In this document: positions 9,523 through 48,507 of the stretch, piece by piece | Layout: each line of letters begins with the position of its first letter | Position numbering within the stretch: the stretch's first letter is position 1 | From: Hydrogenobaculum sp. Y04AAS1 | GTDB lineage: Bacteria > Aquificota > Aquificia > Aquificales > Aquificaceae | NCBI RefSeq assembly: GCF_000020785.1 | Contig: NC_011126.1 | Location: 1,178,001-1,242,000, forward strand | Length of the DNA stretch: 64,000 nt | Direction of reading: 5' to 3' | Notes under the pieces: generated by a model | Told to the model about the DNA's origin: nothing | The model's database searches: none | Seen by the model: the letters and a program-made list of their open reading frames with translations, nothing else | Made by a program: the position numbers and the translations under genes

Positions 9523-9996
9523 ATGAAAGATGTGTTTGTGTTGAGAGAAGAGCTCTCTAAAAAAAGAGGCCTAAGTAAGGGTGATGTCCTTAATCAAGAT
9601 GGTGCGCCTTTATCTAAATCCACTCACGACAAGTCTGCCACGCAATATGTAAAACGCGGACGCTACCGCTCTGGTTTTACCCTTATCGAGCTTTTGGTGG
9701 TTATAGCCATCATTGCTATCTTGGCAGCGATAGCAATACCCCAGTACATTCAATATATGCATAATGCCGCTTCTGGTGCTGCTTTAGCAGATGCAAGACA
9801 ATGTCTTGATGAAGTAACAGCTCAAAGTACAGCAGCAGCTGCTCTTGGAGCAAGCAACACTATAGATCCTGCTATATCAGCAGCTTGTCCTACTATATCA
9901 AGCACTGCTTGTACTTGTGTAGTTGTAAAAGGTATAGCTACAGGTACTGGTATATGTACGTCTAATACTAATGGTGCTGGTTGTACATCAATTTAA
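9523..9996 (+). CDS. pilA: Type IV major prepilin-like protein with extended leader
   Basis: 157 aa. The prepilin signature G-FTLIELLVVIAIIAILAAIAIPQY is present (cleavage after Gly at about residue 51), with Phe+1 and Glu+5 intact. The mature pilin is about 106 aa, short, with Ala/Ser/Thr-rich body and cysteines near the end (CPTISSTACTC, GTGICTSN, GAGC). The leader is unusually long. The strong AAGGAGGTG ribosome-binding site just before the ATG fixes the start. Part of the leader is an antisense copy of the repeat family described under findings. A terminator-like hairpin follows, then the giant glycosyltransferase. Confidence 0.88.
   Translation: MKDVFVLREELSKKRGLSKGDVLNQDGAPLSKSTHDKSATQYVKRGRYRSGFTLIELLVVIAIIAILAAIAIPQYIQYMHNAASGAALADARQCLDEVTAQSTAAAALGASNTIDPAISAACPTISSTACTCVVVKGIATGTGICTSNTNGAGCTSI
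9629..9672 (-). repeat. Divergent antisense copy of the coding-region repeat, in the prepilin leader
   Basis: Read on the minus strand it begins AGAGCG-GTAGCGTC-CGCG-TTT and continues to CGTGGCAGACTTGTC, the complement of the GACAAGT.TGCCACG module of the 44 kb array. The stem is GCGG/CCGC. It supplies codons of the prepilin leader in the antisense direction. The 3' limit is unclear. Confidence 0.6.
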
Positions 9997-10044: not shown

Positions 10045-13000
10045 ATGAAAATATCAAAATCTTTAGTAAAACAAAATATAAAAAAATATGATTATAGTGG
10101 TTTAGAAAAAGATAAATATTATATATCCTATCTTGATATAGATAAGCCAAATATAGTTTATGCAAATATAAAAATACCACCATCTAAGATATATAAAAAA
10201 GGCGTTGATCTCAGCGGTAAGAAATTGTTGATAATAACAGCTTTTGCACTTGGGGATAGTATACATTTTTTACCTGTTTTAAAAGCTATAAAAAGAGCTT
10301 ACAAAGATGTATATATAGGCTATGAACATAAAAAAGATAATAAGCTTTTAATAGATAATCCATATAGAGCGATGGGATCGCATTTTACTTCGGGGGTTGA
10401 CGAAGGGACAGGCATATACGAGGTAAGAAATGCTTTGCACACTATAGATGAGCTTGTGCCAAACCCTATAGATATAGATGTATTAGATAGGTTTGATTAT
10501 GTATTTGATCTGACAGCTCATGTGGCTACTGTTGGTTTTGACAATCAATTTGTGCCAGATTATTTGGCTTCACTTTTTGATGAAAAAGTATTTGGCTTTT
10601 ATGAAAAGGATAAAAAACCAGATATTACACTTTCTAATGATCCAGAGGTTAAAACAAGTATACATAAAATAAAAAGGTTTATATCCCTTGGAAGACCCCT
10701 TTTAGGGCTTCATTTCGAAGCAAGCTCTATCCATAGAAGGATACCCCCAGACGTTTTGGATATCGTACTAAACTATGCAAAAGATAAATACACTATAGTT
10801 TGCGCCTATACAGATTTAGCTAAAGACCTTGCCAAAGAGTATTTTGAAAAATACCCTTTTATAGTAGATGTATCATCTTATGTAAAAGATATAGAGTATC
10901 TTTCTCATTATGTAAGTATTTTAGATATTTTAATAAGCGCTGAAACATCGGTAGCTCACATAGGGGTGGCTCTTGGTGTGCCTACTCTTGTTGTGCTTGG
11001 GCCTGGTTCTTTTGAGGCTGTTTATGATTACAAGCTATTTTATATAAAGGGAGTAAATGCAAGATATGTAGGTACAAAATGCTCAAGTCCCTGTAGGATA
11101 CACGCTTTATCAGAACCATGCCCCGAGGCAAAACTTTTAAAAGACCTAAAAAAACAAGACGACGATTATTCCCCTTGTTTTAAATTTATAGATAGAATTG
11201 AGCTTTTAGAAACATTTAAATCTTTGGAACACCTTGTAAAAAATGCCGATATAGAAAAAGAAGATAAAATTGATAATTTTGAAGAGCTTTACAGCTATTA
11301 TTATAAAACCAAGCTTGTAAACGATTATATAGGAAGAGCTTATCTTTATTTTCATAAATATAGACATAGTTTATTTTATTTTATACAAGAATTTGCAAGA
11401 AAAAATAAAAATGTAAAGATAGAAGGCTACGATAAAGCCCTTTACGAAGAGGTTTTAAAAGATTTAGATATAACAATAGATGATAATGCTTTAAATATTA
11501 TAATAACAGATGGGTTTTATAAAAATATAGATTTTAAAAGCTTAAAAAATAAAAAAGCCATCATTGTTTTTGCCAACAAAAATAGGCTTTATAACTTCGT
11601 TAAAAAAGGTCTTGATATCTTTGATTTGGGTGTGATTAAGCAAAATGTGTATGAATATACAAAAGATGAGCTTGTATCTATATTATCAAATTATTTTGAT
11701 AATTTCCAAGTTTACGAGACACCAGCTACTTACTACGAGTATGAAAGTGTTTTTGGTAAATCAAACTCCCTTGATAATCAACTAGCTCACAACACATTTT
11801 TAAGAAATTCCATAAACTCCCTTCAAGGGGCTTTTTTAATAGCCGTTATAAACGATAATATAAACCTAAGACATCATCTTGATGTTTTTAGTTCGATGCA
11901 GTATTATTATCTAATCTCAGATAAGTATAAAGAAATCAGTTTTTATACCAAAAGCTCAAAAACTTCTGATTTTGATATTGTAGAGCTAAGAGCGTTAACA
12001 ACGCATTTTACTTCGGGGCAAGACAAAAACAGCATATACGATTTAAGAAATAAAGAGAAGGCTTATAAAGGAAATAAAGGTAAGGTTTTCTTATCCTTTG
12101 AAAAAGAACATTTATACGATTTTTACAACGTATTTAAAGAACTAGGATTTTCTATATATACGGCTTTTGTTCCTGAGACTGAATACGCCTCTAAGAAAGA
12201 TATACTTCTTCAAACGCTTTCAAATATAGGTATTGATATAGTTTTTTCAGATTTTAAAAACCTAAAACAAAAATCATATTTAAACTATATAGGTTCTAAA
12301 ATAGTTTTTATAGATAAAGATACCACATATGAGGATCTTATAAATCAATTTAAAGATAAAAAAGATAAGAATGAAGATATATTAGATAAATTAAGCGATA
12401 TATTTGGTAAGTTTTCCCCATTAAAAACCGTTTATATATCAAACGACGAGAGGATAGTGGATTTTTTAAAAGAAAGATCTTTAGATGCAAGATATTTTTA
12501 TGGGTATTTTGTGGATTATAATACTAAAGATATAAATAATAACTCATCTGATATTGTATTTTTATCAGAATGTTCCATTCATAAAACCTATGCTGATAAT
12601 AATATTACAGAATTTTTTATTAAAAAGCTATCAAACTTTAGGACGTCTTTAAAAGCTTTGAAAGAAGATATAGCATTAGAGGATATAAGGGAGTATTTTT
12701 ACGATTATATCTATATGGGGGCTTATGCGTGTAAATACAACGATAGCACCATTAAACATATAGGTACTTTGGAGTTTGACGATGAGATGGTCTTTAGAGT
12801 GGCCCTTTCTACTATTGCAAAAACAAGAGATTTTCCTATAATAGTGCATCCAAAAGATATAAAATATATATTCAACGGAAAAAATATAATACTTGGTCTA
12901 AGCGATATTGTATCAAACACCTTAAATAAAAGATTTTTTGAGGCTTTTAACAAAAAAACGATGTTTATAACAGATTATAAGCCAATATTAGAGGATATGT

Positions 13001-17434: not shown

Positions 17435-18066
17435 ATTTTATAAAAGTTTATGATTTTGATTCGCTTGAGTCTTCGTCTTATTTTTTACTTAGATTTTTCC
17501 TAAAAGCCAAAAAAATAAAACTAAACATAGCTTTAGCTGGTGGTAGCACACCTTTATATTTGTATGAGCTTATGTCAAATTACAAATTTCCCAATTTTAA
17601 ATTTTTTCTTACAGATGAGCGCTACGTTCCAAACAATCATAAAGAGAGCAACTATCACAACATATCAAAATTTTTAAATATAGAACCCGTTTATAAATCT
17701 GGTGATATTGAAAAAGATTGTGAAATATTTTCAAACATTATCAATAAAAACCCAATACACATAACTTTGCTTGGTATAGGAGAAGATGGTCACAGCGCTT
17801 CTATTTTCCCAGATAAACGTATGCTAAAATCCTGTGAAAACACGCTAATAAGTGTAGGTCCAAACGACATACTTCGTATATCTTTAAACTATAAAGCTTT
17901 ATCAAACTCAAGGCTTATATTTTTTGTATCAAAATCAAAAAAATCTGTGGTTTCAAGGCTTTTAAAAGAAAAAGATACAGTCGCAAACGAGTTTATATCA
18001 AATAACAATTGTAAAAAACCCATACTTGTGTCTGATGGAATGAGTGGTCTATTCAATCCTTTTTAA
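17419..18066 (+). CDS. pgl: 6-phosphogluconolactonase
   Basis: 215 aa. LALAGGSTPLYLYEL-like opening (ALAGGSTP), FFLTDERYVPNNHKESNYHN and LLGIGEDGHSASIFP are DevB/Pgl signatures. It overlaps the zwf 3' end by 16 bases and completes the oxidative pentose-phosphate branch in one operon, likely an NAD(P)H and pentose source from stored hexose. Confidence 0.93.
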   Translation: MVYLLDFIKVYDFDSLESSSYFLLRFFLKAKKIKLNIALAGGSTPLYLYELMSNYKFPNFKFFLTDERYVPNNHKESNYHNISKFLNIEPVYKSGDIEKDCEIFSNIINKNPIHITLLGIGEDGHSASIFPDKRMLKSCENTLISVGPNDILRISLNYKALSNSRLIFFVSKSKKSVVSRLLKEKDTVANEFISNNNCKKPILVSDGMSGLFNPF

Positions 18067-18078
18067 ACTAAGTACCTC

Positions 18079-19206
18079 TTATGGATGTTTTATCTTAAAA
18101 GCAAATGGAAACTCTTTTTTAAACAAAGCTTTTTTATCTTCTGGTACTTTCGCAAACACTATAATAGCTTTGTTGTTTTTCACCATATAAGTATCAAACC
18201 CAAGTTTTTTGGCTTTTATATAGATATTATAAGCATAGTTATACTCTTTTATGTAGTAAACTCCAAGTTGGTAATAGTAGAAGTTTTTGGTCTCTTTCTC
18301 TTTATTGTTATTATTAACTATTGTATTTTGGTTTTTTGGTTTGCTTTTTTTTATTGATTCTGCGTAGGATATAGGTGGATTCTCAGTATTTTTATTTACA
18401 TACTCTAGCGTTATAAGTTCTTTTGATAGTTCTATAGCTTCGTCCTTGTACTTTTGGTTTATATCTTCTTTAAACAATATTTTCCTTATCAATTTCGATG
18501 CTTCTTTAAATTTGTTAGCTTCCATATAGCACTTTGTTTTTAGAAGCAACATATCTGGTATACTTGAAGCACCTATATTATTTTTCTCGCTATCTATAAG
18601 ATAGATTGCTTTTTCTTCTATATTTGGTTTGCTACACATATTGTTTTCTACGTAGGCTCTCGCTAAATCAAACTTTGCTACGTTAAAATCCCTATCGTAG
18701 AGTATTGCTAAATTTAGATTTTTAATGTAATCTTTTGTATCGCCTTTTGATTTGTATATGTTTGCAAGTTGATAGTAAGCTTGAGGTCTTAAGCTACAAT
18801 AATCATTTGTTATACATTTATTAAGAGTGTCTATTGCCTCCTTGGTTTTATGCTCTGCTTGCAATATTATAGCTTTGTCTAAAATGGCTTGATAGTAATC
18901 TGGTTTTATATGTAATGCTCTATCTATACTTTTTATAGCTTTTTTATAATTACCTACATTGGCGTAAGCAAGGGCCAGCTTGTCGTAAGCTTTGTAGTTG
19001 TTTGGGTCTTTTAGAATGGCTTTTTTAAAGTTTGATATGGCAACGGCGTAATTTTGGGCTGTAAGCCCCGCCATACCAATATTGTAATAGTATGTTGAAT
19101 TTTTGTTGGATAGTTCTTCTATATTGTGAGTGTTTTGGGCACAAGAATATACGCTAAAAATAGAAAACGATAGAAAAGCAATATAAAAAATATATTTACG
19201 TTTCAT
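18079..19206 (-). CDS. TPR lipoprotein with C-terminal SPOR-like domain
   Basis: 375 aa. Signal peptide ends in a lipobox (VYSC at about 19-22), so it should be an envelope lipoprotein. TPR repeats cover about residues 38-170 (YYNIGMAGLTAQNYAVAISNF, YKAYDKLALAYANVGNYKKA). The last 70 residues (YYYQLGVYYIKEYNYAYNIY...VFAKVPEDK) resemble a SPOR peptidoglycan-binding fold. It probably scaffolds envelope complexes; no specific partner is evident. Confidence 0.75.
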   Translation of the reverse strand: MKRKYIFYIAFLSFSIFSVYSCAQNTHNIEELSNKNSTYYYNIGMAGLTAQNYAVAISNFKKAILKDPNNYKAYDKLALAYANVGNYKKAIKSIDRALHIKPDYYQAILDKAIILQAEHKTKEAIDTLNKCITNDYCSLRPQAYYQLANIYKSKGDTKDYIKNLNLAILYDRDFNVAKFDLARAYVENNMCSKPNIEEKAIYLIDSEKNNIGASSIPDMLLLKTKCYMEANKFKEASKLIRKILFKEDINQKYKDEAIELSKELITLEYVNKNTENPPISYAESIKKSKPKNQNTIVNNNNKEKETKNFYYYQLGVYYIKEYNYAYNIYIKAKKLGFDTYMVKNNKAIIVFAKVPEDKKALFKKEFPFAFKIKHP

Positions 19207-19233
19207 TTTTTATATTATATACTAGATATACAT

Positions 19234-21072
19234 TTACTCTATTGCTTTTCTTACAATTGATTTTAAATCGTATCGTAGATCTTCTAAGCCTATCTCTTGA
19301 TTTATACCAAAGTCTTTTTTTAACAAGTTTTTTGCGCTTTTAATAAGGTCAGCATAAAGCTCATCATCTTCTATATAAGAGGGAAAGTCTATTGTAAATT
19401 TTTCAATAGCATTAAAAAGTGTATAGTTTATGGTTTCTAAATCTATATCGTTTCTTAGAGTCATTATTATATACCCTTCAAAACTATCCAATATAGCCTT
19501 TAGCTTGCCTATATCTTCTATGTTGTCTATATCTTTTAATATTAATATATCTAAAAAACTTACATCTTCGTAAGAGGGTATTTCAAACGTATTCAAATCT
19601 ATTACCCCCAATACACCTTTTTGGGTCTCTTGGATAAAGTTTATAAGATTTTCTATTTTTAACATTGTATAAGCCTTATCTTCGTATCTTACGCAAACCC
19701 TTTTTAATTTTGTAAGCGTTTGTGTAAAAATAGTGTAAAAATCTTGAAAGGGTTTTGGTATTTCTATTTTTGTTTGTTCTTTTGCATTTTCACCTTCTAT
19801 ATTTGGGATGTAGTTTATTTTCTGTATAGAAGTGCTTATTTCTTTTGAAATTCCCAAGTCTCTTATTGTCAGATTTGCGTCGTTTATGATATTTTTCAAA
19901 AAGCTTGAAAACTTTATACTATCTATACCAAACCTATTCAACCTATTTAACATTATAAATCCAGCCTTTTCATCGTTTTGCATTATAAACTTTGTGCCAA
20001 GCATAGAAAGATGTATTGTAAAAGATAGGTTTATGGCTTGCTTTGATGGTTGTAATTTATTAGCGGTGCTGTATTTGTAGTATGGGGCGTAAGTATTGTA
20101 GCCAATTATAATGCTTTTAATAAAATCATCAAAACCATAAAATACCTTTTCAAAATATTCTTTGTCTAATTTTATTATATCTTTTCCAAACGTATCTTTT
20201 TCAAATATTCTAGATACATAAGAGTATAATTTTGATGGTGTTTTTACCAAATTTAGTATTTGGGTTTTAATATCGTTGTATTTGTTTTTGTTTAGGAAAT
20301 CTATAACGATAAGAAGCCCATCTATCATGGATAGCATAAGAAGATCGTAAAATCTACTTTTTTGTGTGCAGGCGATTTGGCATATGTTGTCAAAGATGGC
20401 TGTTTGAAGTATGAGTATTTGCTCTATTTCTGTTAGTTCTTTTAGCTCATCTTTGTACTCTGTAATAGCTTCTTTTGATATAGCTTTTAATGTAAAATCC
20501 TTTATCCTTGAGAGTCCAAGTCTTATAATGGCGGATTTTATATCTTTTATATCTATGCCTTTGTTTGAATAAGCGTTGTTTGCGATATTTAATATATCTT
20601 CTTCTAATGTAGGCATATTTCTAATAAGAGCATATATTTTATCCACGTTGGTGTTTTCGTTGGTAAGCTCCATTATGATAGGCATCGTACCTTTTATAAA
20701 ATCATGAGCTTCAAAAGCTTCTAATGTATCGGTTTCTATCTTAAATTTTGGTTCTTTTCTTATGCGCTCTGGCTTTTTGTGTAGTTTTATAGCTTTTTGT
20801 AGCGTATCTTTTGATATAGGCTTTTCAAATGAAAGCCCTACACGTATGCCACGCTCTTCAGGATTTTTGACTTGATTTATATTGTCTAAGACTACCTTGG
20901 CTTTAACCTCTTCTCCTAGTATATTTATAGAAAAATTTTTATTTTCTAATAGAGTTTTTAGCGTATCTTGGCTTGATAGTTCTATTAGAGCGCCTTCGTA
21001 GGATATGTTTTTTATAATGCCATATTGGGTTTCTATATATGTGTAAAACCTTAGATGTTTTCTATTGTTCAT
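19234..21072 (-). CDS. PilZ-HDOD protein, c-di-GMP receptor candidate
   Basis: 612 aa. The N-terminus has PilZ motifs: RKHLR at residues 4-8 and NISYEGALIE, matching RxxxR and (D/N)xSxxG, the c-di-GMP-binding residues. An HDOD-like helical domain follows from about residue 115 (MPTLEEDILNIANNAYSNKG...AIIRLGLSRIKD). The remaining half is unassigned. It should respond to c-di-GMP, fitting with the two diguanylate cyclases in the window. A 27-base gap separates it from the downstream TPR gene. Confidence 0.8.
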   Translation of the reverse strand: MNNRKHLRFYTYIETQYGIIKNISYEGALIELSSQDTLKTLLENKNFSINILGEEVKAKVVLDNINQVKNPEERGIRVGLSFEKPISKDTLQKAIKLHKKPERIRKEPKFKIETDTLEAFEAHDFIKGTMPIIMELTNENTNVDKIYALIRNMPTLEEDILNIANNAYSNKGIDIKDIKSAIIRLGLSRIKDFTLKAISKEAITEYKDELKELTEIEQILILQTAIFDNICQIACTQKSRFYDLLMLSMIDGLLIVIDFLNKNKYNDIKTQILNLVKTPSKLYSYVSRIFEKDTFGKDIIKLDKEYFEKVFYGFDDFIKSIIIGYNTYAPYYKYSTANKLQPSKQAINLSFTIHLSMLGTKFIMQNDEKAGFIMLNRLNRFGIDSIKFSSFLKNIINDANLTIRDLGISKEISTSIQKINYIPNIEGENAKEQTKIEIPKPFQDFYTIFTQTLTKLKRVCVRYEDKAYTMLKIENLINFIQETQKGVLGVIDLNTFEIPSYEDVSFLDILILKDIDNIEDIGKLKAILDSFEGYIIMTLRNDIDLETINYTLFNAIEKFTIDFPSYIEDDELYADLIKSAKNLLKKDFGINQEIGLEDLRYDLKSIVRKAIE

Positions 21073-35003: not shown

Positions 35004-36897
35004 ATATCTTACTTACCCATATTAAGATTATTAGCGTTATAGCCATATAGAGTATGTATACATGTATGACACCTGTTTGGATTTTATACTTTAATGTTTG
35101 GAGTTTGTTTAATAGGCTTTTAGCAATAAAACCATAAATACCATCAAAAATATCTAACCCATCTTTGTATAGTTTGGAAGTGATTTTCTTTATAGGCTGA
35201 GAAAACCCTTCTGGGCTATACTGGGCTGATAGAGGCACATCCTCTTGTCCGCAGGCCCATGTTTTGTAATAAATAGAGTGCTTTGAGATGTATTTGTTTA
35301 GATATATGCTTATTAAAAGCATGAAAACCATCAATATACCTATAAAAAACGGTGCTATAGAACCAAAGTTTTCCGGGGTTTTAATTTCAAATATCCCATT
35401 TACATGTATAGGTACTGGTATCAGGTTGTTTATCACATCTAATACAAAAACCGGCAAAACACCCACCAATAGGCAAGACAATGCCAATATGCCCATGGAT
35501 ATTAGACTCATGGTTTTTATATCTTCTTTGCGTTTTATATCTTTTCTTGGGTTTCCTAAAAACGTCAGGCCAAAGTATTTGACGGCGCTAAGCATGGCTA
35601 TACCACCTGTAAGTGCCAAAAACGATGCGGATAAGGGCGATGCTATCCAAAGGTAATATCCTTTTACCTTCAAAGATAAAAGAAGGCTTTGATAAAGAAG
35701 CCACTCGCTTATAAAACCGTTAAAAGGAGGCAAAGCGACAAGGCTAAGCATCCCAACAAGGGTTATTGTACCAAGCTTAGGAGCGTATTTTATGGCCCCG
35801 CCAAGCTTTGCTATCTCTTGGGTATGGGCTCTTGCCATCAAAGACCCTGCGCTCATAAACAAAAGGGATTTGAATAAAGAGTGATTTAATATATGAAACA
35901 ACGAAGCCCCCAAAGCCAAAGCGTATAAATATTCTACATTTAGGCTTTTAAAAATCATAGCAAGTCCTATACCAACGTATATAATCCCTATATTTTCCAT
36001 AGAAGAATAAGCGAGCATGGCTTTTAGGCGGTTTTGGACAGATGCGTTTAGGATGCCAAATAGCATAGTGATAGTTCCAATCGTTAGTATTAAAAGCCCA
36101 AAACTTGCCGGATATTGTTTTATAAAATAAAACCAATACCTTATAAACATATAAACAGGCATTTTTATCATGAGCCCAGACATAAGGGCTGATACAAAAG
36201 AAGGTGCCACAGGATGGGCTTTTGGCAACCAATTGTGAAGCCCTATAATACCTGCTTTCATACCAAATCCAAGCACTGAAAATAAAAATATCCATGTGGT
36301 CCAAAAGGTGTTTAGCGATAAGTTTTGCCAATGATCAAAGCTCAAGGAGTTTGTATTTATATAAAATCCTACAAAACTAAGGAGTATAAAAGCTGTACCT
36401 ATGTGTGTCATTACTATGTATATCAAAGATGCTTTGTAGTTTTCTTCTTTTTTAAAATCCCAAAGCACCAAGAAAAACGAGAGGATACTCATAACCTCCC
36501 AAAACAATAAAAATGTAAAAGCGTTTGCACTTAATAAGACTAATATCATAGATAGTATGAAAATGTTTTTTAACATTGTCATTAAAATTTTTTTATCATA
36601 GTTCTCTTCTTCTATGTAATCTAAAGTGTATATGCTGTTTATTGCGCCGTTAAAAGCCACAATACCTATAAAAAATAAGGATAGTCTATCTACGTAAAAT
36701 GAGTATGTTATGTGCTTTATGGTTGTGTTTAAATGTATTGACAAGTCTGCCACGCCCCACAAGTATGCCACGGTTATATAGTTATCACCTTTTATAAAAA
36801 GCGCTATACATCCCAAAAATATACCAATATATAGAAGGCTAAAACCTACCTCCAAAAACTTCCATAAATCCTTATTAACTTTCTTATAAAAAAACAC
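34996..36897 (-). CDS. hyfB: Large antiporter-like subunit (HyfB/NuoL-like)
   Basis: 633 aa, about 16 membrane helices. The conserved core FGMKAGIIGLHNWLPKAHPVAPSFVSALMSG is present with its lysines. Periplasmic loop near residue 42-51 (VAYLWGVADL) is coded by two 14-base copies of the TGCCACG module of the repeat family. First gene of the complex; no ferredoxin-like HyfA/HyfH gene is present. Confidence 0.92.
   Translation of the reverse strand: MFFYKKVNKDLWKFLEVGFSLLYIGIFLGCIALFIKGDNYITVAYLWGVADLSIHLNTTIKHITYSFYVDRLSLFFIGIVAFNGAINSIYTLDYIEEENYDKKILMTMLKNIFILSMILVLLSANAFTFLLFWEVMSILSFFLVLWDFKKEENYKASLIYIVMTHIGTAFILLSFVGFYINTNSLSFDHWQNLSLNTFWTTWIFLFSVLGFGMKAGIIGLHNWLPKAHPVAPSFVSALMSGLMIKMPVYMFIRYWFYFIKQYPASFGLLILTIGTITMLFGILNASVQNRLKAMLAYSSMENIGIIYVGIGLAMIFKSLNVEYLYALALGASLFHILNHSLFKSLLFMSAGSLMARAHTQEIAKLGGAIKYAPKLGTITLVGMLSLVALPPFNGFISEWLLYQSLLLSLKVKGYYLWIASPLSASFLALTGGIAMLSAVKYFGLTFLGNPRKDIKRKEDIKTMSLISMGILALSCLLVGVLPVFVLDVINNLIPVPIHVNGIFEIKTPENFGSIAPFFIGILMVFMLLISIYLNKYISKHSIYYKTWACGQEDVPLSAQYSPEGFSQPIKKITSKLYKDGLDIFDGIYGFIAKSLLNKLQTLKYKIQTGVIHVYILYMAITLIILIWVSKIYG
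36740..36772 (-). repeat. Two tandem copies of the ACAAGT.TGCCACG module in the HyfB-like gene
   Basis: ACAAGTCTGCCACG at 36741-36754 and ACAAGTATGCCACG at 36759-36772, 18 bases apart. The same 14-mers occur in the prepilin leader (9631-9644) and in the 44 kb array. In the HyfB-like gene they are read antisense, as VAYL-WG-VADL. Confidence 0.6.
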
Positions 36898-36933: not shown

Positions 36934-37020
36934 TTATATTTTATTTCTCTTGTCAAATTTAAAAATGAGCCTCAGCAAGAACAAAACACCGAGGCCCATT
37001 ATGGCTATAAGTTTTTTCAT
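36934..37020 (-). CDS. Possible 28-residue hydrophobic peptide after ribonucleotide reductase
   Basis: MKKLIAIMGLGVLFLLRLIF followed by a basic tail, a plausible single membrane helix. It begins 12 bases after the reductase stop with no ribosome-binding site, and it contains the terminator-like hairpin, so it may not be translated. Confidence 0.3.
   Translation of the reverse strand: MKKLIAIMGLGVLFLLRLIFKFDKRNKI
36969..36995 (-). terminator. Terminator-like hairpin after ribonucleotide reductase
   Basis: On the minus strand GCCTCGG pairs with CTGAGGC (one G-U pair, which works only in minus-strand RNA), 13-base loop, followed by TCATTTTTAAATTT. It lies 38 bases after the reductase stop. Confidence 0.55.
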
Positions 37021-37032
37021 AAAAGTATTTTA

Positions 37033-40000
37033 TCAGTTACCGCATTCTTCACAATAGCCTTTTTCTTTCATTATCTCGTCTAAAGGCATTAGATTATCGC
37101 TTTCAACGAGTTTGCCTTTGTTACCATTTTTTGGCTTCGAAGATGATGCACTGCTAACAGTTTTAGCTTGGGTGCTTTCAACAGCGTGCCTTGTCTCTGA
37201 ATTCTTGGGTGCCTTTGTCTGTTCCTCAGAGTTGAAATGCGCTGATAGCGCTCTAGCTTTATCTTCTTCTTTATCTTGTGATGATTGCGGCTCTTTTATG
37301 TCCTCATGCACGTATTTTCCTTCTGTTTTTATCTTTGCTGGCATAAAGGCGTAGTATGTGGCTTTTAGTCCGTATTTCCAAGCTTTTAGATATATTTCCA
37401 TTATCTTTTGTGGGTCTCTGGTGTTAAAGTAAAGGTTTCTTGATATGGAAGAATCAATCCATTTTTGAAGTACAGCCGCTTGTTTTATATAGACTTCGGT
37501 ATCTATTTCGTAGGCGGTTTTGTATATATCTTTTATCTCTTGAGGTATTTCTTTTATGTCCTGTATAGAACCTTGTTGAAGTAATACATCTTCTCTTAGT
37601 CTATCCCAAAGACCTAGTTTTTTTAGATCGCGTATAAAGTTTTCGTTTACTTCTAAAAATCTTCCAGCTATGTTTGTCCTTGAATATACCAAAGCGTAAT
37701 AAGGCTCAAAGCTTTGAGAAGTCCCGGCTATTATAGAAATTGTGGCCGTAGGCGCAAGCGTTGTCTGACAGGCATTTCTTATACCTTGTTTTACTTTTTC
37801 TCTTAGTTCTTCCCAATTAAATGCTGGCAAAGTGTGCTCCAAGCCGTTCTCTGAGCTTTGAAGTGTCTGTGAGACCGTGGTAGACTTGTCCTGTTCTTTA
37901 GCGTCGAAATGCGATGATATCGCTCTGCTTTCATCTTCCGCTATATCATCAGAATCGTGGTATACTTGTAGCCCTACATACTTATCAACAAGCTTCTTAT
38001 AATCTATAGTGTGCCTTGCGCCGTTCTCTGAGCTATTGAGTGGCTGTGCATGTTCCCTATCGTCGAAACGCGATTGCACCGCTCTATTCTCATCCGCATA
38101 GTTTTGAACCATGTCATTGTAGGGCGTGGTATACTTGTCGTTGGTTAAAGATCTTTCTCTAAAAAGATGCTCTAGGGTATCTATTGGTAGGATCCCCTTT
38201 GACCAGTCCGAACCATCAAAGTTTGGATAAGTGCCTCTTTCTTTGGCAAGCTCCACAGAGGTTTCTATAGCAACGTAAGACATCGTTTCTCCTATTTTAT
38301 CTAAAAGCTTCAAAGCTTCTTTTGAATCTACTGGTAGTTTTAGCTTTTCTATCATATCTTGATATCCCATAAACCCAAGGCCTATTTTCCTGCTTTGTTT
38401 TGTGCCTTTTTCCACAGCTTCTAAAGCATAATAGTTGGCATCTATGACGTTGTCTAAAAATCTTATCGCTTTTCTTATAACCGCTTTAAACTTTTCCCAG
38501 TCAAAAGTGTTATTTGATAAAAACTTAGTGTGCTTTGAGCCGTTCTCAGAGCTATTGAGTGGCTGTGCATGTTCATTAACTCTGAAATGCGTTAGCAACG
38601 CTCTAGGCAATACCAAAGAGCCTAAATTGCAAGACTCTATAGAATCATAGGTAGATACCAAAAGTTGCTCTGTACATAAGTTTGTGGTAAGGATTGTCCC
38701 AGTATGTTTGTTTGGGTGTCTTATGTTGATGGGATCTTTAAATGTGTACCAAGGCTCTCCAGTTTGTATGGTATTTTCTATAGCCTCTTTAAATAGCTCC
38801 ACCGCTTTTATTTTTTTATGCCTTATCTTTCCCGATAGAGCTTTTCTTATACATTTTGAATATTCTCTAGAAAACTTTTTACCATAGGTGCTAACTAATT
38901 TTGGGCAATCAGCTGGGTCAAAAAGATACCAGTCTCCATTTTCTTCGACCCTTCTCATAAATTCATCGTTTAAGAAGAGGGCAATTTTTAAGTTCTTAAA
39001 CCTTTGAGAATCATCGCCCCATTTTCTTTTTGTTCTCACAAAATCAAATACATCAAGATGCCATGGCTCCAGTGAAGCCAGTGCTGAGCCTCTTCTTCTT
39101 CCACCTTGAGATACCGCTGTTATCGTCTCATCTATTATCTTTAAAAACGGTATTATACCTGAGGATTTTCCTTGAATGCTTCTTATTATTGAGTCTTTTG
39201 CCCTTAGTTTTGTAGCTGGTAGCCCAACTCCTCCGGCGTGTTTGTTTAACATACCTACTTGTTTTACAGTTTCAAAGATTTTAGAAAGATCGTCTTCCTC
39301 ATCAACCACAAAACAAGAAGAAAGCTGTGGAAACCTTGTGCCAGAATTAAAAAGCGTTGGAGTGGAGGGGATAAACTCCATACTTGACATCATATGATAA
39401 AACTCTATAGCCCAATGGTTTCTATCTTCAGGAGTTTTTTCCACCAAAGCTACGCCCATTGCCACTCTCATCCAAAACCATTGAGGAGCTTCTAAGATAT
39501 TTCCGGTATCCAAATCTTTTATAAGGTATCTATCCATGAGATTATATAGACCGTTAAACTTTAAAAGTTGGTCTCTTTTAGGTACCAGCTCAAGGGCAAG
39601 CATTTCAAGGTCATAATAAGAAGCCAGCTTTTCATCCAAGAGCCCAAGCTCCACAGCGTTGTCTATATAGTCTATGAAAAGCTCTTTGTAGGCTTTCTTA
39701 GGTGAATACATACCGCCAAAAGCTTGTTTGTATATTCTTTGTAAAAGCACATTTCTTGCCATAGCGTCGTATATTGGGTCATCTATGGCCCTTGTGAGAA
39801 GAGAATGAAGTATATGCTGGAATATGGCGGCGGTTTCTATACCATCAAAGATATTTATCTCTATATCTTCCATGATCTCGTCTATGTTTATTTCGTTTAA
39901 ATCCTCCATTGTCCATTCTTCTATATCTTGGGCAGATATATCTTTTGTAGTTTTCCACTCTTTTAGCAAAGATAAAGCATTTTCTAAGACTGTCCTTATC

Positions 40001-40050
40001 TTTAAAAGGTCTAACTTTTCTCTTGCGCCTGAACGTTTAATAACTTCCAT
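37033..40050 (-). CDS. nrdA: Ribonucleoside-diphosphate reductase large subunit with four inserted repeats
   Basis: 1005 aa, long for the family. An ATP-cone occupies about residues 1-90. Cys246 (QLSSCFVVD) and the catalytic triad N457-L-C459-T-E461 (TTNLCTE) are present, with SCNLGSLVLP after it and the redox-tail CEEC near the end (GYCEECGN). Residues 483-508, 656-681, 709-740 and 933-956 are in-frame copies of the repeat family; the stretch from about 638 to 740 appears to be almost all inserted sequence. Without them the protein would be of ordinary size. Class I versus II cannot be decided from here; no nrdB is nearby. Confidence 0.92.
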   Translation of the reverse strand: MEVIKRSGAREKLDLLKIRTVLENALSLLKEWKTTKDISAQDIEEWTMEDLNEINIDEIMEDIEINIFDGIETAAIFQHILHSLLTRAIDDPIYDAMARNVLLQRIYKQAFGGMYSPKKAYKELFIDYIDNAVELGLLDEKLASYYDLEMLALELVPKRDQLLKFNGLYNLMDRYLIKDLDTGNILEAPQWFWMRVAMGVALVEKTPEDRNHWAIEFYHMMSSMEFIPSTPTLFNSGTRFPQLSSCFVVDEEDDLSKIFETVKQVGMLNKHAGGVGLPATKLRAKDSIIRSIQGKSSGIIPFLKIIDETITAVSQGGRRRGSALASLEPWHLDVFDFVRTKRKWGDDSQRFKNLKIALFLNDEFMRRVEENGDWYLFDPADCPKLVSTYGKKFSREYSKCIRKALSGKIRHKKIKAVELFKEAIENTIQTGEPWYTFKDPINIRHPNKHTGTILTTNLCTEQLLVSTYDSIESCNLGSLVLPRALLTHFRVNEHAQPLNSSENGSKHTKFLSNNTFDWEKFKAVIRKAIRFLDNVIDANYYALEAVEKGTKQSRKIGLGFMGYQDMIEKLKLPVDSKEALKLLDKIGETMSYVAIETSVELAKERGTYPNFDGSDWSKGILPIDTLEHLFRERSLTNDKYTTPYNDMVQNYADENRAVQSRFDDREHAQPLNSSENGARHTIDYKKLVDKYVGLQVYHDSDDIAEDESRAISSHFDAKEQDKSTTVSQTLQSSENGLEHTLPAFNWEELREKVKQGIRNACQTTLAPTATISIIAGTSQSFEPYYALVYSRTNIAGRFLEVNENFIRDLKKLGLWDRLREDVLLQQGSIQDIKEIPQEIKDIYKTAYEIDTEVYIKQAAVLQKWIDSSISRNLYFNTRDPQKIMEIYLKAWKYGLKATYYAFMPAKIKTEGKYVHEDIKEPQSSQDKEEDKARALSAHFNSEEQTKAPKNSETRHAVESTQAKTVSSASSSKPKNGNKGKLVESDNLMPLDEIMKEKGYCEECGN
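37183..37254 (-). repeat. In-frame repeat copy in nrdA, C-terminal (residues 933-956)
   Basis: 72 bp, AGAGCG to CACGCT. Head hairpin GCGCT-ATC-AGCGC. Encodes RALSAHFNSEEQTKA...TRHA. It lies just before the cysteine-bearing C-terminal tail. Confidence 0.82.
37831..37926 (-). repeat. In-frame repeat copy in nrdA (residues 709-740)
   Basis: 96 bp, AGAGCG to CACACT. Head hairpin GCGAT-ATC-ATCGC, perfect. Contains GACAAGTCTACCACGGTCTC, which matches unit 2 of the intergenic array, and CTCAGAGAACGGCT near the tail. Another CGTGGTATACTTGT module lies upstream at 37956-37969. Confidence 0.88.
38008..38085 (-). repeat. In-frame repeat copy in nrdA (residues 656-681)
   Basis: 78 bp, AGAGCG to CACACT. 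Head hairpin GCGGT-GCA-ATCGC with one G-U pair; CGCGTTTCGACG and GGGAACATG match array unit 2. Encodes RAVQSRFDDREHAQPLNSS... and ends ARHT. A GACAAGTATACCACG module lies upstream at 38125-38139. Confidence 0.87.
38527..38604 (-). repeat. In-frame repeat copy in nrdA (residues 483-508)
   Basis: 78 bp, AGAGCG to CACACT. Head hairpin GCGTT-GCT-AACGC, perfect. Encodes RALLTHFRVNEHAQPLNSS... SKHT; its middle is nearly the same as the copy at 38008-38085. It lies in a loop 22 residues after the catalytic Glu461. Confidence 0.88.
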
Positions 40051-40120
40051 AGTTTAACCTCCTAAACTTTTAATTTAAATATAAAAGAAATTTGTTGTTT
40101 TAAAAGCCTAAGATTATTCA

Positions 40121-40939
40121 TTATACTTTTGGTATTCTTTTTATTATATTCCAAAGTCTTCTAATATCTAAAGCTTTTGGATTTTGTTTTAGAGCTTTTA
40201 TTAAAAACTCAAAACCCAAAGCCTTCTCTTTGAACCTGAAGGCAGTTTCAGATATACTAAGATACATATTTGCATCGGCGATGTCTTTGTGCATCTCATA
40301 AACCTTCATCGTATAGTAAAAATACTCTTTTGACCGGCTTGTTCTTTTGCCGTGCTCTCTTATCCCTACGGTATTTTTATCGATGATCTTTATATCAAGG
40401 CCTTTTTTGTAATATCTTAAAAATAGCTCCCAGTCTTCTCGTTGGTGAAGGCTTTCGTTAAAAGCCAAAAAACGTTCTTTTCTTACCATGATACCAGAAG
40501 GATATCCTACCATTCCCCCAAGTATAATGCTTTTTAGATCAGGGTAAGCTTTTTTCGATACCCTTATTATCTTATCTTCTTCATCTATAAATGTTCTTGG
40601 AATAGAGTAAATCAAATCCCCTTTTTCTTTTGAAAGCTCTTCAAGATGGTGAGGAAAGTATATATCGTCTGCATCCAAAAACGCTACAAAATCACAAGCG
40701 CTTTCTTTTACCCCTAAGTTTCTTGAGTAGCTTCTTCCTTTGTTTTTTTCGTTTGTTAAAAGCCTAAAATCAAAGGGTAGTTTTATATCTTTTAAAAGCT
40801 CTTTTGTGTTGTCAGTAGATCCATCGTCTATTACTATAAGCTCTTTTGGAAAGTATGTTTGATTTTTTACAGAGTTTATGGCTTTTAATAAAAACTTAGA
40901 AGCGTTGTAAGAGGGTATAACTACACTTATACATTTCAC
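40121..40939 (-). CDS. Family 2 glycosyltransferase
   Basis: 272 aa. SVVIPSYNASKFLLKAINSV, LIVIDDGSTDNTKELL and AFLDADDIYFP are the GT-A nucleotide-sugar motifs including the DxD. The acceptor is unknown. Its start overlaps the end of hslV by four bases. Confidence 0.93.
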   Translation of the reverse strand: MKCISVVIPSYNASKFLLKAINSVKNQTYFPKELIVIDDGSTDNTKELLKDIKLPFDFRLLTNEKNKGRSYSRNLGVKESACDFVAFLDADDIYFPHHLEELSKEKGDLIYSIPRTFIDEEDKIIRVSKKAYPDLKSIILGGMVGYPSGIMVRKERFLAFNESLHQREDWELFLRYYKKGLDIKIIDKNTVGIREHGKRTSRSKEYFYYTMKVYEMHKDIADANMYLSISETAFRFKEKALGFEFLIKALKQNPKALDIRRLWNIIKRIPKV

Positions 40940-41481
40940 AACAGCTCTATGCTAAAGTGTTTGTTGGTATAAACACATATATCAGATGCTATATCAAGAG
41001 ATATTTTTACTATCTCTTCGGCGCTTTTGTCGGTGTGATAGTATAGGGCTTTGGCGGCACTTCTTGCAAAATCTCCTCCAGAACCTGTGGCCAAGATCGG
41101 CTCATCTGGTTCTATAACATCCCCATTGCCAGAGAGCAAAAACATACTTTCTTTATCACAAGCTATCAAAACCGCTTCTAATCTTCTTAAATATCTATCG
41201 GTGCGCCATTCTTTGGCAAGTTCCACAGACGCCCTTGCTAGGTTTCCTCTGTGCTCTTCTAACTTACCTTCAAGCCTCTCCATGAGAGCAAGCCCATCTG
41301 CTGCACCACCTGCAAAGCCCACAAGTACAGTGCCTTTATGAAGTCTTCTAGTCTTTTTTGCACTGTGTTTTAGTATTTGAGAACCAAGTGTTACTTGCCC
41401 ATCGCTTCCAATGGCCGTTTGGCCATTTTTTCTAACAGCTATTACAGTGGTAGCATGAAGGAGTTTATCTTTTACATCCAT
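40936..41481 (-). CDS. hslV: ATP-dependent protease subunit HslV
   Basis: 181 aa. The catalytic N-terminal threonine is exposed after removal of about 10 residues (HATTVIAVRKNG); SDGQVTLG, GFAGGAADGLAL and ATGSGGDFA are proteasome-type motifs. hslU is not in this window. Starts inside the end of the transketolase gene (10-base overlap). Confidence 0.95.
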   Translation of the reverse strand: MDVKDKLLHATTVIAVRKNGQTAIGSDGQVTLGSQILKHSAKKTRRLHKGTVLVGFAGGAADGLALMERLEGKLEEHRGNLARASVELAKEWRTDRYLRRLEAVLIACDKESMFLLSGNGDVIEPDEPILATGSGGDFARSAAKALYYHTDKSAEEIVKISLDIASDICVYTNKHFSIELL

Positions 41482-43436
41482 TTTTCTTTTACTTTTTGAT
41501 ATATATATTCTTCGTGAAAACCAAAGTGTTTCATAACATCTGGGCCTTTTCCAGATTTGCCAAAGGTTTCCATAGATATTACAAGGGCGTCTTTGTTTAC
41601 ATACTTATACCAAATATCTCCTTTGGCAGCTTCTATAACTACATGTTTTGTATTTTTTGGAATAACCTCGTTTTTATAAGCTTCATCTTGCATTTCAAAA
41701 AGCTCTAAACAAGGAGCGCTTACCACAGTAGACTGTATGCCGTTTTCGGCAAGTTTGTCTTGAAGAGCCAAAGCCAATCCTACTTCAGACCCTGATGCTA
41801 TTATGGTAAATTCTTGATTTGGAGCACCAGAAAGCACGTATGCTCCGTATTTTGCCATATTTTCTTTGGCATACTTTGTCCTATCTAAAGTTTTTAGCTT
41901 TTGACGAGATAGTATAAGAGCTACTGGGCCGTCTTTTCTTCTTAAAGCAAGCTCCCAGCAGTAAGCGGTTTCGTTGGCATCGCAAGGGCGCATCACCCAT
42001 AGGTTTGGTATTAGCCTCAAAGATGGTATGTGTTCTACTGGTTGATGGGTTGGTCCATCTTCTCCTAAGCCTATAGAATCGTGGGTGAATATGTATATCA
42101 CATGTAGCTTTGAAAGAGCGGCTACTCTTATACTTGGTCTCATATAATCTGAAAATATCAAAAACGTTGCTACATATGGGGTTGTGATGCCACCGTAAGC
42201 CATGCCGTTGGCTATAGCTCCCATCACATGTTCTCTTATGCCAAAATGGATGTTTCTTCCGTAGTAGTTTGTGGCTTCAAAATCCCCTTCGTTGTGAATA
42301 TAGGTGTTGTTTGATTCGTGTAAATCTGCTGAACCACCAAAAAGCGTTGGCATATGTGGTGCTATAGCATTTAAAACCTTACCGGAGGCTTGTCTTGTGG
42401 CCATATCTTCTGTAAACCTTGGTATGTGTGATATTACGTTTTCTAAATTTATATTCTTTGTCAAGATATCTACAACATCTTTATGAGTTTCTTTGTATTT
42501 TGACAGCTTTTCTTGCCATTTTTGCTCTAAGACTTTTCCTTCTTCTACTTTTCTTCTCGTGTAATCCAACACTTCTTGGGGTATGTGGAAAGGCTCATAG
42601 GGCCAGTTTAGGCTTTCCCTTAATTTTGCTATAGCTTCTTTGCCAAGAGGAGATCCGTGAGCTTCGGCGCTGTCTTGTTTTATGCTTTTATAACCTATAT
42701 GAGTTCTTACCGATAAAAACACCGGTTTTGATTGATTTGTTAAAAGCTCTTTTATAGTCTTTTCTAAAAGCTCGATATCGTATCCATCTTCTATGTGTCT
42801 TACGGTAAAACCTGCGTTTTCAAAACGCTTTAGCACATCTTCACCCCAAGCTAAGCTTGTATCTCCATCTATAGTAATGCGGTTGTTATCCCAGATAATA
42901 AAAAGATTGTCAAGGTTTAGATGCCCTGCCAAAGCTGCTGCTTCATAGGAGATCCCTTCCATCAAATCCCCGTCTCCTACCATGCAAAAGACTTTATAGT
43001 TCAGTATAGGCTCATCAAGTTTGTTGCATATAGCCCCAAGATGTTTTTGCTCTATCGCCATACCTACGGCGTTTGCTATACCCTGTCCAAGGGGTCCTGT
43101 GGTGGCTTCTACTCCTTTTGTAAGAAAGCTTTCTGGGTGTCCTGGGGTTTTACTTCCTAATTGCCTAAAGTTTTTAATATCTTCAAGTGTAAGATCAAAC
43201 CCATAAAGGTATAGCAGCGAATAAAGAAGCATGGAACCATGCCCATTGGAAAGTACAAACCTATCTCTATTTACCCATTTGGGGTTTTCTGGGTTGTATC
43301 TTAAAATCTTATCGAAGAGTATATATCCTATATGCGCTGTGCCAAGGGGCATACCGGGGTGTCCTGAATTGGCTTTTTCTACGGCATCTATACTTAAAAA
43401 TCTAATGCTGTTTATTACAAGCTCATCTATGTTCAT
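41472..43436 (-). CDS. tkt: Transketolase
   Basis: 654 aa, family length. RFLSIDAVEKANSGHPGMPLG, the thiamine-diphosphate site GDGDLMEG...NN and the LGEDGPTHQPVEH signature are present. It serves the pentose-phosphate pathway. First gene of tkt-hslV-GT2. Confidence 0.96.
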   Translation of the reverse strand: MNIDELVINSIRFLSIDAVEKANSGHPGMPLGTAHIGYILFDKILRYNPENPKWVNRDRFVLSNGHGSMLLYSLLYLYGFDLTLEDIKNFRQLGSKTPGHPESFLTKGVEATTGPLGQGIANAVGMAIEQKHLGAICNKLDEPILNYKVFCMVGDGDLMEGISYEAAALAGHLNLDNLFIIWDNNRITIDGDTSLAWGEDVLKRFENAGFTVRHIEDGYDIELLEKTIKELLTNQSKPVFLSVRTHIGYKSIKQDSAEAHGSPLGKEAIAKLRESLNWPYEPFHIPQEVLDYTRRKVEEGKVLEQKWQEKLSKYKETHKDVVDILTKNINLENVISHIPRFTEDMATRQASGKVLNAIAPHMPTLFGGSADLHESNNTYIHNEGDFEATNYYGRNIHFGIREHVMGAIANGMAYGGITTPYVATFLIFSDYMRPSIRVAALSKLHVIYIFTHDSIGLGEDGPTHQPVEHIPSLRLIPNLWVMRPCDANETAYCWELALRRKDGPVALILSRQKLKTLDRTKYAKENMAKYGAYVLSGAPNQEFTIIASGSEVGLALALQDKLAENGIQSTVVSAPCLELFEMQDEAYKNEVIPKNTKHVVIEAAKGDIWYKYVNKDALVISMETFGKSGKGPDVMKHFGFHEEYIYQKVKEKWM

Positions 43437-43568
43437 ACTTCTTATTATAAACCAAATTTTTTATATAAGCTTTTAAACAAGACATTAGCAATGTGGGATT
43501 ATAAAATGTGCAAAGTAAATATAATTTGATATTTTTATAAAAATTTTATCTTTTCATTAAAATTTCAC

Positions 43569-43596
43569 TTGACAATTTTATATTTTTTTATATTTC
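43569..43596 (+). promoter_or_regulatory. Promoter of the small secreted protein
   Basis: TTGACA at 43569-43574, 16 bases, TATTTC at 43591-43596, with AAGGAGGT just downstream. The -10 match is moderate. The ACTTGACA context is similar to that before the prepilin gene. Confidence 0.45.
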
Positions 43597-43613
43597 AAAA
43601 GGAGGTAAGTGTT

Positions 43614-43820
43614 ATGAGAAACCTTATCGTATCTGCACCAAGGATGTTGGCTCTCTTAGGAGCTGTCTTGTTTATTGGGGCAACTGCCCAAGCCTCACAA
43701 ACTCACAAGGAAACTGGCGTTTCAGCCAAAGCTGCTCACCAATCCTATCTTTTGGCTGAAGATGAAAACAAACAAGAGGACAATTCTGAGGACAATTCTA
43801 AAGAAGACTCAGAAGATTAA
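43614..43820 (+). CDS. Small exported protein with acidic tail
   Basis: 68 aa from the ATG at 43614, eight bases after GGAGGT. A signal peptide (MRNLIVSAPRMLALLGAVLF...AQA) gives cleavage near residue 27; the mature part ends in an Asp/Glu/Ser/Asn-rich tail (QEDNSEDNSKEDSED). I do not recognise it. A metal- or surface-binding role is conceivable but unproven. Confidence 0.65.
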   Translation: MRNLIVSAPRMLALLGAVLFIGATAQASQTHKETGVSAKAAHQSYLLAEDENKQEDNSEDNSKEDSED

Positions 43821-43860
43821 TTGTAATTAGCCACCTCCCTCCTCTATTTAATTTTATAAT

Positions 43861-43882
43861 CCGCGGGTCTTTGGCCCTGCGG
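43861..43882 (+). terminator. Terminator-like hairpin
   Basis: CCGCGGG and CCCTGCGG form an 8-pair stem with a G-U and a TCTTTGG-type loop, followed by ACATATTTGTTTT. Ends the small exported-protein transcript before the repeat array. Confidence 0.55.
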
Positions 43883-43910
43883 ACATATTTGTTTTGGGTT
43901 GATTAAAGAA

Positions 43911-44274
43911 CATGTATATACGAGGTAAGAAATGCTAAAGCACACTAGAGCGGTAAAACCGCATTTCGGAGCTAAAGAAAAGACAATGAAACTCATGAGA
44001 AGAGAGAAATGCTAAAGCACACTAGAGCGACTGTGGCGCGTTTCGACGTTAAGGAACATGACAAGTATGCCACGGTCTCGGAGGCGCACTCATGAGTTCA
44101 GAGAACGGCTATGAGCACACTAGAGCGGTAAAACCGCATTTCGGAGCTAAAGAAAAGACAATGAAACTCATGAGAAGAGAGAAATGCTAAAGCACACTAG
44201 AGCGACTATGGCGCATTTCTACGCTAAGGAGCATGCGGAGGCACTTAGGAGATATAAAAAATGCTATGCACACT
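43911..44274 (+). repeat. Tandem intergenic array of the AGAGCG...CACACT repeat
   Basis: A partial unit (43911-43946) then four units joined head to tail: 43947-44023 (77 bp), 44024-44121 (98), 44122-44198 (77), 44199-44274 (76). Units 1 and 3 are identical by eye. Each starts AGAGCG-N7-CGC(A/G)TTTC and ends GCACACT or a close variant. Unit 2 has the GACAAGTATGCCACGGTCTC and TCAGAGAACGGCT modules found in nrdA. Lengths are not multiples of three and frames are broken by stops, unlike the copies inside genes. Confidence 0.88.
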
Positions 44275-44559
44275 AAGATTCTTTTAGATGTAAGAATTGA
44301 TAAGAAAGAATTTGATTTGGATAAAGTGATGGATATGTTTTGTTGTGAAGGGTATATTTATATTCCTTTTGATGAGATTGTAGATAACGAAAATTTAGAG
44401 TATATGTTAGATAAATCAAAGGAATATTTTGTAGTTTGTAACAGTGGCAATAAAAGTAAATATGTGGTAGATATGTTAAATAGTTTAGGTTTTAAAGCTT
44501 TTAATATAGAAGGAGGATTAAAGGGATTGTTAGAAGATGATAAACTCAATGTTTCTTAA
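44266..44559 (+). CDS. Rhodanese-domain protein starting inside the repeat array
   Basis: 97 aa from the ATG at 44266 (an ATG at 44233 in frame would add 11 repeat-encoded residues). The rhodanese active-site loop is VVCNSGNKSKY with the persulfide cysteine; KILLDVR and AFNIEGGL are family landmarks. The first codons (MHT) are the end of repeat unit 4, so its native 5' end seems replaced by the repeat. AGGAGA stands 13 bases before. The 3' end overlaps convergent cargo gene by 14 bases. It may supply sulfane sulfur. Confidence 0.78.
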   Translation: MHTKILLDVRIDKKEFDLDKVMDMFCCEGYIYIPFDEIVDNENLEYMLDKSKEYFVVCNSGNKSKYVVDMLNSLGFKAFNIEGGLKGLLEDDKLNVS

Positions 44560-45469
44560 ATAAACTTCCCACCGTTAGAGCATTTACAACTTTTGCTATA
44601 TCTTCTTCTTTTGTTTTTGGATTTTCTAAGAAAGCTTCTAAGTCTTTATAGTGTATCTCTCTTCTTGATATTCTATCTAAAATCCATTTTAGATCGGAAT
44701 CTTCTACACCACTTTCTATAGCTTTTATTTGATTGGAAGCTGTTTCTTGATCTTTTATCTGATAGGCTATTATCTCATCTTTATTTTCAAGCATGTTTAC
44801 ATTGTTTGGCAAAGAAAAGTTTGGTTTTTGACCTTTTTCTGATATCTCTTCGGCTATCCAGCCCATATGTTTCATTTTATCTATAGCTCTTTGTTCTAAC
44901 TCATCGCTCAAAGACATATCTTTGTGTCTTGTTACAAAAGACTGATATAAGGTTTCTAATATAGTCTGATATTGTTTTTGCAAAAATGTATTTAATGTGC
45001 TTACTATCTTTAGTTTGTTTTCATCTAAAATAGGATTTTCCCCAAACTCTTTTGATGTTTCTAATACCTTTTTCTGAAGATCTTTGAAAATATGTAGATG
45101 TGAGTTTTCATCATCTATAATCCTTTCAAATATCTTTTTTATGCTTTTATCTTCTATATTGCTTAGTTGTTTTGAATACTCTTCTATGGCCATGCTCTCA
45201 GCTTCTATATCAAGCTCAAGCAAATCTTGAAGCGTAGGGGCTTCCAAAAATACTTGGGCCCTTTTGTCTATAGCTGGTATACCGTTAAGCTCTACTACTT
45301 TATGGGCAAACATGCGAAGGTGTTTCATCTCCTCTCTTGCTATCTCTTCGAGTTTGTTTTCTAAGCCTTCATCGTTTATTGTGTAAGCGTGAAATAAGTA
45401 TTGGATAATAGCAGAATGCTCTAAGCTTATGTTGTAATTTAGGTATTCTACGATTGTTTTGTTATCCAT
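44546..45469 (-). CDS. Encapsulin cargo: two-domain ferritin-like protein
   Basis: 307 aa. Domain 1 (about residues 1-140) is a four-helix ferritin-like bundle with Glu17, E47-x-x-H50, Glu91 and E121-x-x-H124, a full diiron ligand set. Domain 2 (about 155-285) looks like a second bundle, but at the expected ExxH places it has K198-x-x-H201 and EIH (271-273), so it seems degenerate. The C-terminus ends ALTVGSLFKKH: LTVGSL is the encapsulin-targeting peptide. It is 11 bases downstream of the encapsulin gene. It should oxidise and store iron, or guard against peroxide, inside the shell. Confidence 0.88.
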   Translation of the reverse strand: MDNKTIVEYLNYNISLEHSAIIQYLFHAYTINDEGLENKLEEIAREEMKHLRMFAHKVVELNGIPAIDKRAQVFLEAPTLQDLLELDIEAESMAIEEYSKQLSNIEDKSIKKIFERIIDDENSHLHIFKDLQKKVLETSKEFGENPILDENKLKIVSTLNTFLQKQYQTILETLYQSFVTRHKDMSLSDELEQRAIDKMKHMGWIAEEISEKGQKPNFSLPNNVNMLENKDEIIAYQIKDQETASNQIKAIESGVEDSDLKWILDRISRREIHYKDLEAFLENPKTKEEDIAKVVNALTVGSLFKKH

Positions 45470-48060: not shown

Positions 48061-48507
48061 ATGAGCGATAATAAATATGATAACGATACTATATATATTA
48101 GAACTATAAAAGCCCTTTGGGAAAATTACCTAAAAACCGGTGCAGTGGACGAGGATGCTATAAAAAACATAGCAAAAGAGGCTTATGATAAAGTCCATTT
48201 GGCTTATTTAAAGCATATCATAGAGGATATTAAAAACGACGTGGTTGAGAGTTTTTATGAAAAGAATCCCTTCACAAAAGAATCCTACGCTAAGATAGTG
48301 TTTTTCTTCAAAAAACTAAGAAATATACTCTCAAGATATCATGCAATCAGTTATTTAGAAAACTTTGAGCTTTTGGAATCAATGCTTTATGCCGAAGATG
48401 TAATGTCAGGGTTTCTTAGATCAAGCAAAGAACTTAAAGATGCCATCACAAAAGGTTTTATTGAACTTACTCCCCCCCCCCCCCCCCCCCCCCCCCATAA
48501 CTTTTGA
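48061..48507 (+). CDS. 5' part of a diguanylate cyclase gene, frame broken at the poly-C tract
   Basis: 148 aa, helical N-terminal segment ending in eight prolines from the C tract and HNF before the stop. Not a recognised domain. With 24 Cs rather than 25 (or 27) it would read through into the following frame, giving a 743-residue protein. As sequenced it is the truncated, off-phase product. Confidence 0.75.
   Translation: MSDNKYDNDTIYIRTIKALWENYLKTGAVDEDAIKNIAKEAYDKVHLAYLKHIIEDIKNDVVESFYEKNPFTKESYAKIVFFFKKLRNILSRYHAISYLENFELLESMLYAEDVMSGFLRSSKELKDAITKGFIELTPPPPPPPPHNF

Follow-up and report, generated by a model that had tools for sequence, protein, structure and literature searches.

The window, by which we mean the whole 64,000-nucleotide stretch of DNA that was analysed, covers positions 1178001-1242000 of the 1,559,514-bp genome of the hot-spring bacterium Hydrogenobaculum sp. 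Y04AAS1. It harbors many copies of a 78-bp repeat unit with the consensus AGAGCG-N7-CGC-RTTTC...GCACACT, whose 5' start is a small hairpin. The features considered here are listed below in window coordinates.

37033..40050, minus strand: nrdA, ribonucleotide reductase large chain (PF02867, PF00317), with four units inside
38527..38604, minus strand: 78-bp unit AGAGCG..GCACACT in nrdA, codon phase 0; site empty in two related genomes
38589..38601, minus strand: 5' hairpin GCGTT-GCT-AACGC of an nrdA copy
38532..38540, minus strand: 3' terminal hairpin region GC-TCAAA-GC before ACACT, in the unit at 38527..38604; its inner pair (model columns 67-71) covaries across copies
38008..38085, minus strand: unit in nrdA, stem GCGGT-GCA-ATCGC; at the same site a second genome has the stem GCGAC-TAT-GGCGC
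37831..37926, minus strand: 96-bp unit in nrdA with an 18-bp insert in its interior, stem GCGAT-ATC-ATCGC
37190..37254, minus strand: unit in nrdA with a degraded 3' part, stem GCGCT-ATC-AGCGC
10366..10443, plus strand: 78-bp unit, stem GCGAT-GGG-ATCGC, within an open frame of 1039 codons, phase 0; three related genomes have a clean empty site
11989..12051, plus strand: unit without a recognisable 3' end, stem GCGTT-AAC-AACGC, in the same 1039-codon open frame as the unit at 10366
43904..44274, plus strand: head-to-tail array of a partial unit followed by units at 43947, 44024 (98 bp), 44122 and 44199
43947 and 44122, plus strand: array stems GCGGT-AAA-ACCGC; the units at 44024 and 44199 have one mismatch
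9655..9672, minus strand: variant unit head with the 14-nt hairpin sequence GCGGTAGCGTCCGC

With at most one mismatch allowed, AGAGCG-N7-CGC matches 14 times in the window, compared with 2.0 matches expected from shuffles. All of the stem variants listed in the initial annotation are present, at 38601..38589 (minus strand), 37926, 38085, 37254, 10366, 11989, 43947/44122 and 44024/44199. The interval 38591-38604, where that annotation had placed the stem, takes in AGA but only 11 of the 13 bases of the stem, which in full extends over 38589-38601 on the minus strand.

Copies were searched for with a sequence-only model of the 78-bp unit, from which structure was left out to avoid bias. This model gave 73 matches in the Y04AAS1 genome (E <= 0.1) and 44 in a second Hydrogenobaculum genome (E <= 0.001). 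Among one genome per species, it gave no match in 3 further Hydrogenobaculum and 59 other Aquificaceae genomes, some of which are fragmented drafts where absence carries less weight. Units are found in intergenic DNA, in protein genes, in the tmRNA gene and in head-to-tail arrays. A search of Rfam with window positions 37000-44600 returned nothing above the gathering score for the unit and two weak, unrelated matches only. The ends of the unit, AGAGCG and GCACACT, are not inverted copies of each other, and the consensus fold of the unit retains only two hairpins, one at each end. A long central stem (ATTTC..GAAAT) that appears in single folds was rejected, as it is absent from the consensus fold and shows no covariation in its columns beyond the null.

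Other repeats accompany the units. A second short repeat, GTGGYAKACTTGT, is found both inside some of the 78-bp units and separately (window 37957-37969, 38126-38138, 37877-37889, 36741-36771, 9629-9641 and 44061-44073), and it occurs in nrdA at a place where one relative is without it. Locus L083 (genome 198200-207000) is a dense cluster of divergent units that belong to a second subfamily, of the CGCATTTTACTTC type. A run of 25 C residues at window 48472-48496 is a possible slippage tract.

The units behave as precise insertions. The tmRNA of Y04AAS1 (genome 60287-60712) is 426 nt long, whereas those of four relatives are 348-349 nt; the difference is exactly one unit (60555-60632), without duplication, and the site is empty in all four relatives. 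A 78-nt "hairpin-like insertion" in the tmRNA of Hydrogenobaculum sp. has been published (PMC4227106); it agrees with the unit found here in position, length and genus, and most likely is a copy of the repeat. In the accessible portion of that paper the insertion is given as a singular feature of tmRNA, with no link to a genome-wide repeat, and our text search of the literature found this report of the insertion and no description of the repeat family. In nrdA there are two more clean insertion sites; at one of these, two units were inserted in the second genome. Further empty sites, mostly clean, were found for L079, L087:2649, L094, window 10366, L089:1471, L090 and L093, and possible 2-bp target duplications for L080 and L081; several of these alignments are too diverged for exact placement of the junctions. 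The inserted piece is AGAGCG...CACACT, placed precisely into A/T-rich sites and mostly without target-site duplication. The left flanks of units end mostly in T, and no fixed tetranucleotide was seen before the insertions, only the A/T-rich preference.

For analysis of the hairpins we aligned 121 matches from the two genomes; the head is ungapped in 103 of them, with 60 distinct stems. In the comparison of orthologous sites, L097/L127 and L091/L118, which have a start offset of 1-2 bases, did not contribute stem counts. The tree-based null comprised 400 alignments of 96 copies, in which columns evolved independently at matched rates along a tree built on body columns only. The initial annotation had proposed, from two-sided changes, that a 5-bp stem with a 3-nt loop is kept, and had named a lack of compensatory excess over a phylogenetic null as the result that would speak against it. 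The covariation persists in the larger set of 121 copies. Under the tree-based null, pair 7-13 ranks first among 3003 column pairs, and its score was reached by 0 of 400 null alignments, a figure that is only as good as the tree, which recombination may blur. The same holds for pair 67-71 of the 3' hairpin (0/400). Our results thus show that both terminal hairpins covary beyond the tree-based null. In the test of all pairs, 8-12 has an E value of about 0.04 and 9-11 of 0.07. Pair 5-15, at about 0.6, is supportive only, although in a test of that pair by itself its mutual information was reached in 0 of 1000 cases. Pairs 4-16 and 6-14 are near-invariant. Two-sided change, which had been attributed to two inner positions, therefore rests mostly on 7-13 with help from 8-12 and 5-15, while the outer pairs hardly vary.

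In the 103 copies, positions 7 and 13 are A-T (50), C-G (16), G-C (8), T-A (4), G-T (5), A-G (10), G-A (8), A-A (1) or C-C (1). Pairing as high as that observed was found in 0 of 5,000-20,000 shuffles of the alignment, which ignore relatedness. Sliding the 3' partners lowers the proportion of paired cells from 93.5% to 12-50%. At the orthologous site L090/L117 the two genomes differ in the first stem, GCGGC-TAT-GACGC against GCGAC-TAT-GTCGC. The loop ATC occurs with six 7-13 combinations, which indicates that the pairs have changed repeatedly and not once. It is the shape of the hairpin that is kept, rather than a particular sequence or peptide.

Some column pairs outside the structure also score highly (63-64, 69-70 and 67-70 at 0/400; 54-56 with an E value of 0.03), the columns 63-64 representing the alternative AACGGC/AAATGC, and these show that linkage is present in the data. 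At the orthologous site L082/L106 the body of the unit differs at 18 of 62 positions, compared with 13 of 280 in the flanks, and the stem is identical. This points to exchange between copies or to replacement, and gene conversion among units may occur, in which case any tree of the copies would be unreliable. This raises the question of whether the covariation is itself linkage, with recombination having carried a few founder stems as blocks from copy to copy; as unit bodies seem to recombine, nulls based on body trees can overstate independence. We consider this quite improbable. When each distinct stem is counted once, 7-13 is still paired in 44 of 60, compared with 28.4 expected, and 0 of 20000 shuffles (again ignoring relatedness) reached this number. 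Moreover, the four pairs with the highest mutual information in the 13-nt head are the nested ones, 7-13, 8-12, 9-11 and 5-15, ahead of all other pairs of the block, and each of five loops occurs with at least three types of 7-13.

The unpaired combinations at 7-13 are not distributed at random over the stems. Where 8-12 is C-G, 13 of 14 distinct rows have purine-purine at 7-13; where 8-12 is T-A, 74 of 79 have a Watson-Crick or G-U pair there. A second accepted form of the hairpin, purine-purine at 7-13 with C-G at 8-12, thus appears to exist, judging from these sequences, even though the standard energy model gives it no reward. The array units with one mismatch, which had been noted as departures from the rule, are indeed present, and the dependence on 8-12 makes them more than exceptions. 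The tie between the two pairs suggests that the constraint is structural and not one of strict palindromy.

This dependence also bears on a mutational origin of the stems, in which template switching during replication (quasipalindrome correction) would keep inverted repeats paired without selection on structure. Template switching can make and maintain hairpins, and can introduce changes on both sides in a single event (PMC8794818), so that the two-sided differences at orthologous sites suit such events as well as they suit two-step change. However, arm-to-arm copying should often erase a mismatch, and the purine-purine mismatch at 7-13 has persisted in copies whose outer pair is changed on both sides (GTG-GC-AAA-GA-CAC in tmRNA; GAG..CTC). 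Its dependence on C-G at 8-12 (13/14) is not expected from copying either. Furthermore, the loops are strand-biased, with a purine first in 93 of 103, and few have a reverse-complement partner. We therefore regard template switching as an unlikely source of the covariation.

Twenty-seven copies are genic, that is, inside an open frame of at least 240 codons. Their hosts include nrdA, topoisomerase I, a helicase, a class I aminoacyl-tRNA synthetase, EAL-domain proteins, an rve transposase and an IS605 OrfB protein. The unit is open over its full length and sits in frame within conserved protein genes, and as 78 bp correspond to 26 whole codons and several frames are open, insertions in essential genes would be tolerable. 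Two hosts are themselves of mobile-element type: at L089 (genome 621600-625100) an rve-type IS transposase frame has two units in two different reading frames, and at L098 (genome 1437500-1440500) a unit lies inside a 557-codon IS605 OrfB (TnpB-like) frame, with no Y1 TnpA gene detected in the genome. Those genic copies that lie in phase 0 specify a peptide that can be recognised, RA..HF...SSENG..HT, and the stem could in principle be a by-product of selection on its RAxxxHF portion; the initial annotation had likewise stated that in genes the stem is selected together with the peptide. That part of the annotation is not borne out, and we rejected peptide selection, which we find scarcely credible, as the cause of the covariation. 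The 27 genic copies are read in four frames (+0, +1, +2 and -1), and covariation is equally strong outside long open frames, where 7-13 is paired in 60 of 75 copies (38.4 expected), compared with 22 of 27 (12.8 expected) in the genic copies. In addition, the residues coupled by 7-13, which in phase 0 supplies the first bases of codons 3 and 5, have no reason to obey Watson-Crick rules.

Another possibility is that the hairpin works in resident copies as RNA, as a processing site, a determinant of mRNA stability, a terminator or a protein-binding site, and has been retained because it serves the host or the expression of the gene around it. One copy does lie inside the tmRNA gene, and mismatches among distinct stems are G-T/T-G in 15 cases and A-C/C-A in 5, the direction expected if the unit strand is read as RNA. 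This excess weakly favours folding of the unit strand; it is small, and the counts ignore relatedness. On the other hand, genic copies occur in both orientations (+0, +1, +2 and -1), and many sites are empty in relatives, unlike what is expected for a host function. A resident role in RNA thus seems rather improbable.

We consider it somewhat probable that the stem forms the hairpin at the 5' end of a short mobile element, non-autonomous and about 78 bp long, with a short-loop hairpin near each end kept as a structure needed for mobility. The folded ends would be recognised by an enzyme or an RNA process, as single-stranded DNA or as RNA, during copying or joining, and it would mainly be copies with foldable ends that spread. 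As for candidate machinery, a search of the whole Y04AAS1 genome for the Y1 transposase family PF01797 gave no match, and control genomes did give matches; a search of the Y04AAS1 genome for the reverse transcriptase family PF00078, and this family only, also gave none.

Hairpin elements derived from IS200/IS605 (PATE) and REP/RAYT have hairpins near their ends, produce no target-site duplication and include non-autonomous copies. The unit resembles them in its covarying subterminal hairpins and in that most empty sites are without duplication (two with a possible 2 bp), but differs in that its genome is without a detected Y1 transposase (PF01797) and the unit has no fixed tetranucleotide target. 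With the DDE-type MITEs (Correia, ERIC, RUP) it shares size class and dispersal, but it has no clear terminal inverted repeats and mostly no target-site duplication. Nearest in kind to the unit is the Rickettsia palindromic element (RPE). RPEs are small repeats that are non-autonomous and contain an open frame; they lie in frame within conserved protein genes, and in Rickettsia they have also entered tmRNA and RNase P RNA (PMC2229807, PMC10969869). The Hydrogenobaculum unit likewise enters protein genes in frame and a stable RNA gene, that of tmRNA. RPEs form long stem-loops of 105-146 bp, and their terminal inverted repeats are given as 12 bp in the table of PMC2229807. In contrast, the unit, compared here by description, is about 78 bp long, belongs to the Aquificota, has a hairpin near each end and has no clear terminal inverted repeats that would form one long stem-loop. 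As it is without a long terminal inverted repeat, we call the unit RPE-like in behaviour and not an RPE, and regard it as probably a separate family. A bolder reading, which we hold to be doubtful, is that it represents an undescribed kind of mobile element, with two short end hairpins that are recognised by their shape, clean insertion that leaves no target duplication, a host without the usual transposase or reverse transcriptase for hairpin elements, and a second, purine-purine hairpin form when the closing pair is C-G.

These results place RPE-like coding repeats in the Aquificota and most likely explain the odd insertion published for tmRNA. They also provide a resource of about 120 copies, together with sites that are empty in close relatives. 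The way in which coding repeats of this type move is an unsettled matter, and the entry for target duplication of RPEs is a question mark in PMC2229807. The covarying hairpins at the ends of the unit and its clean, duplication-free joining are direct clues to this movement.
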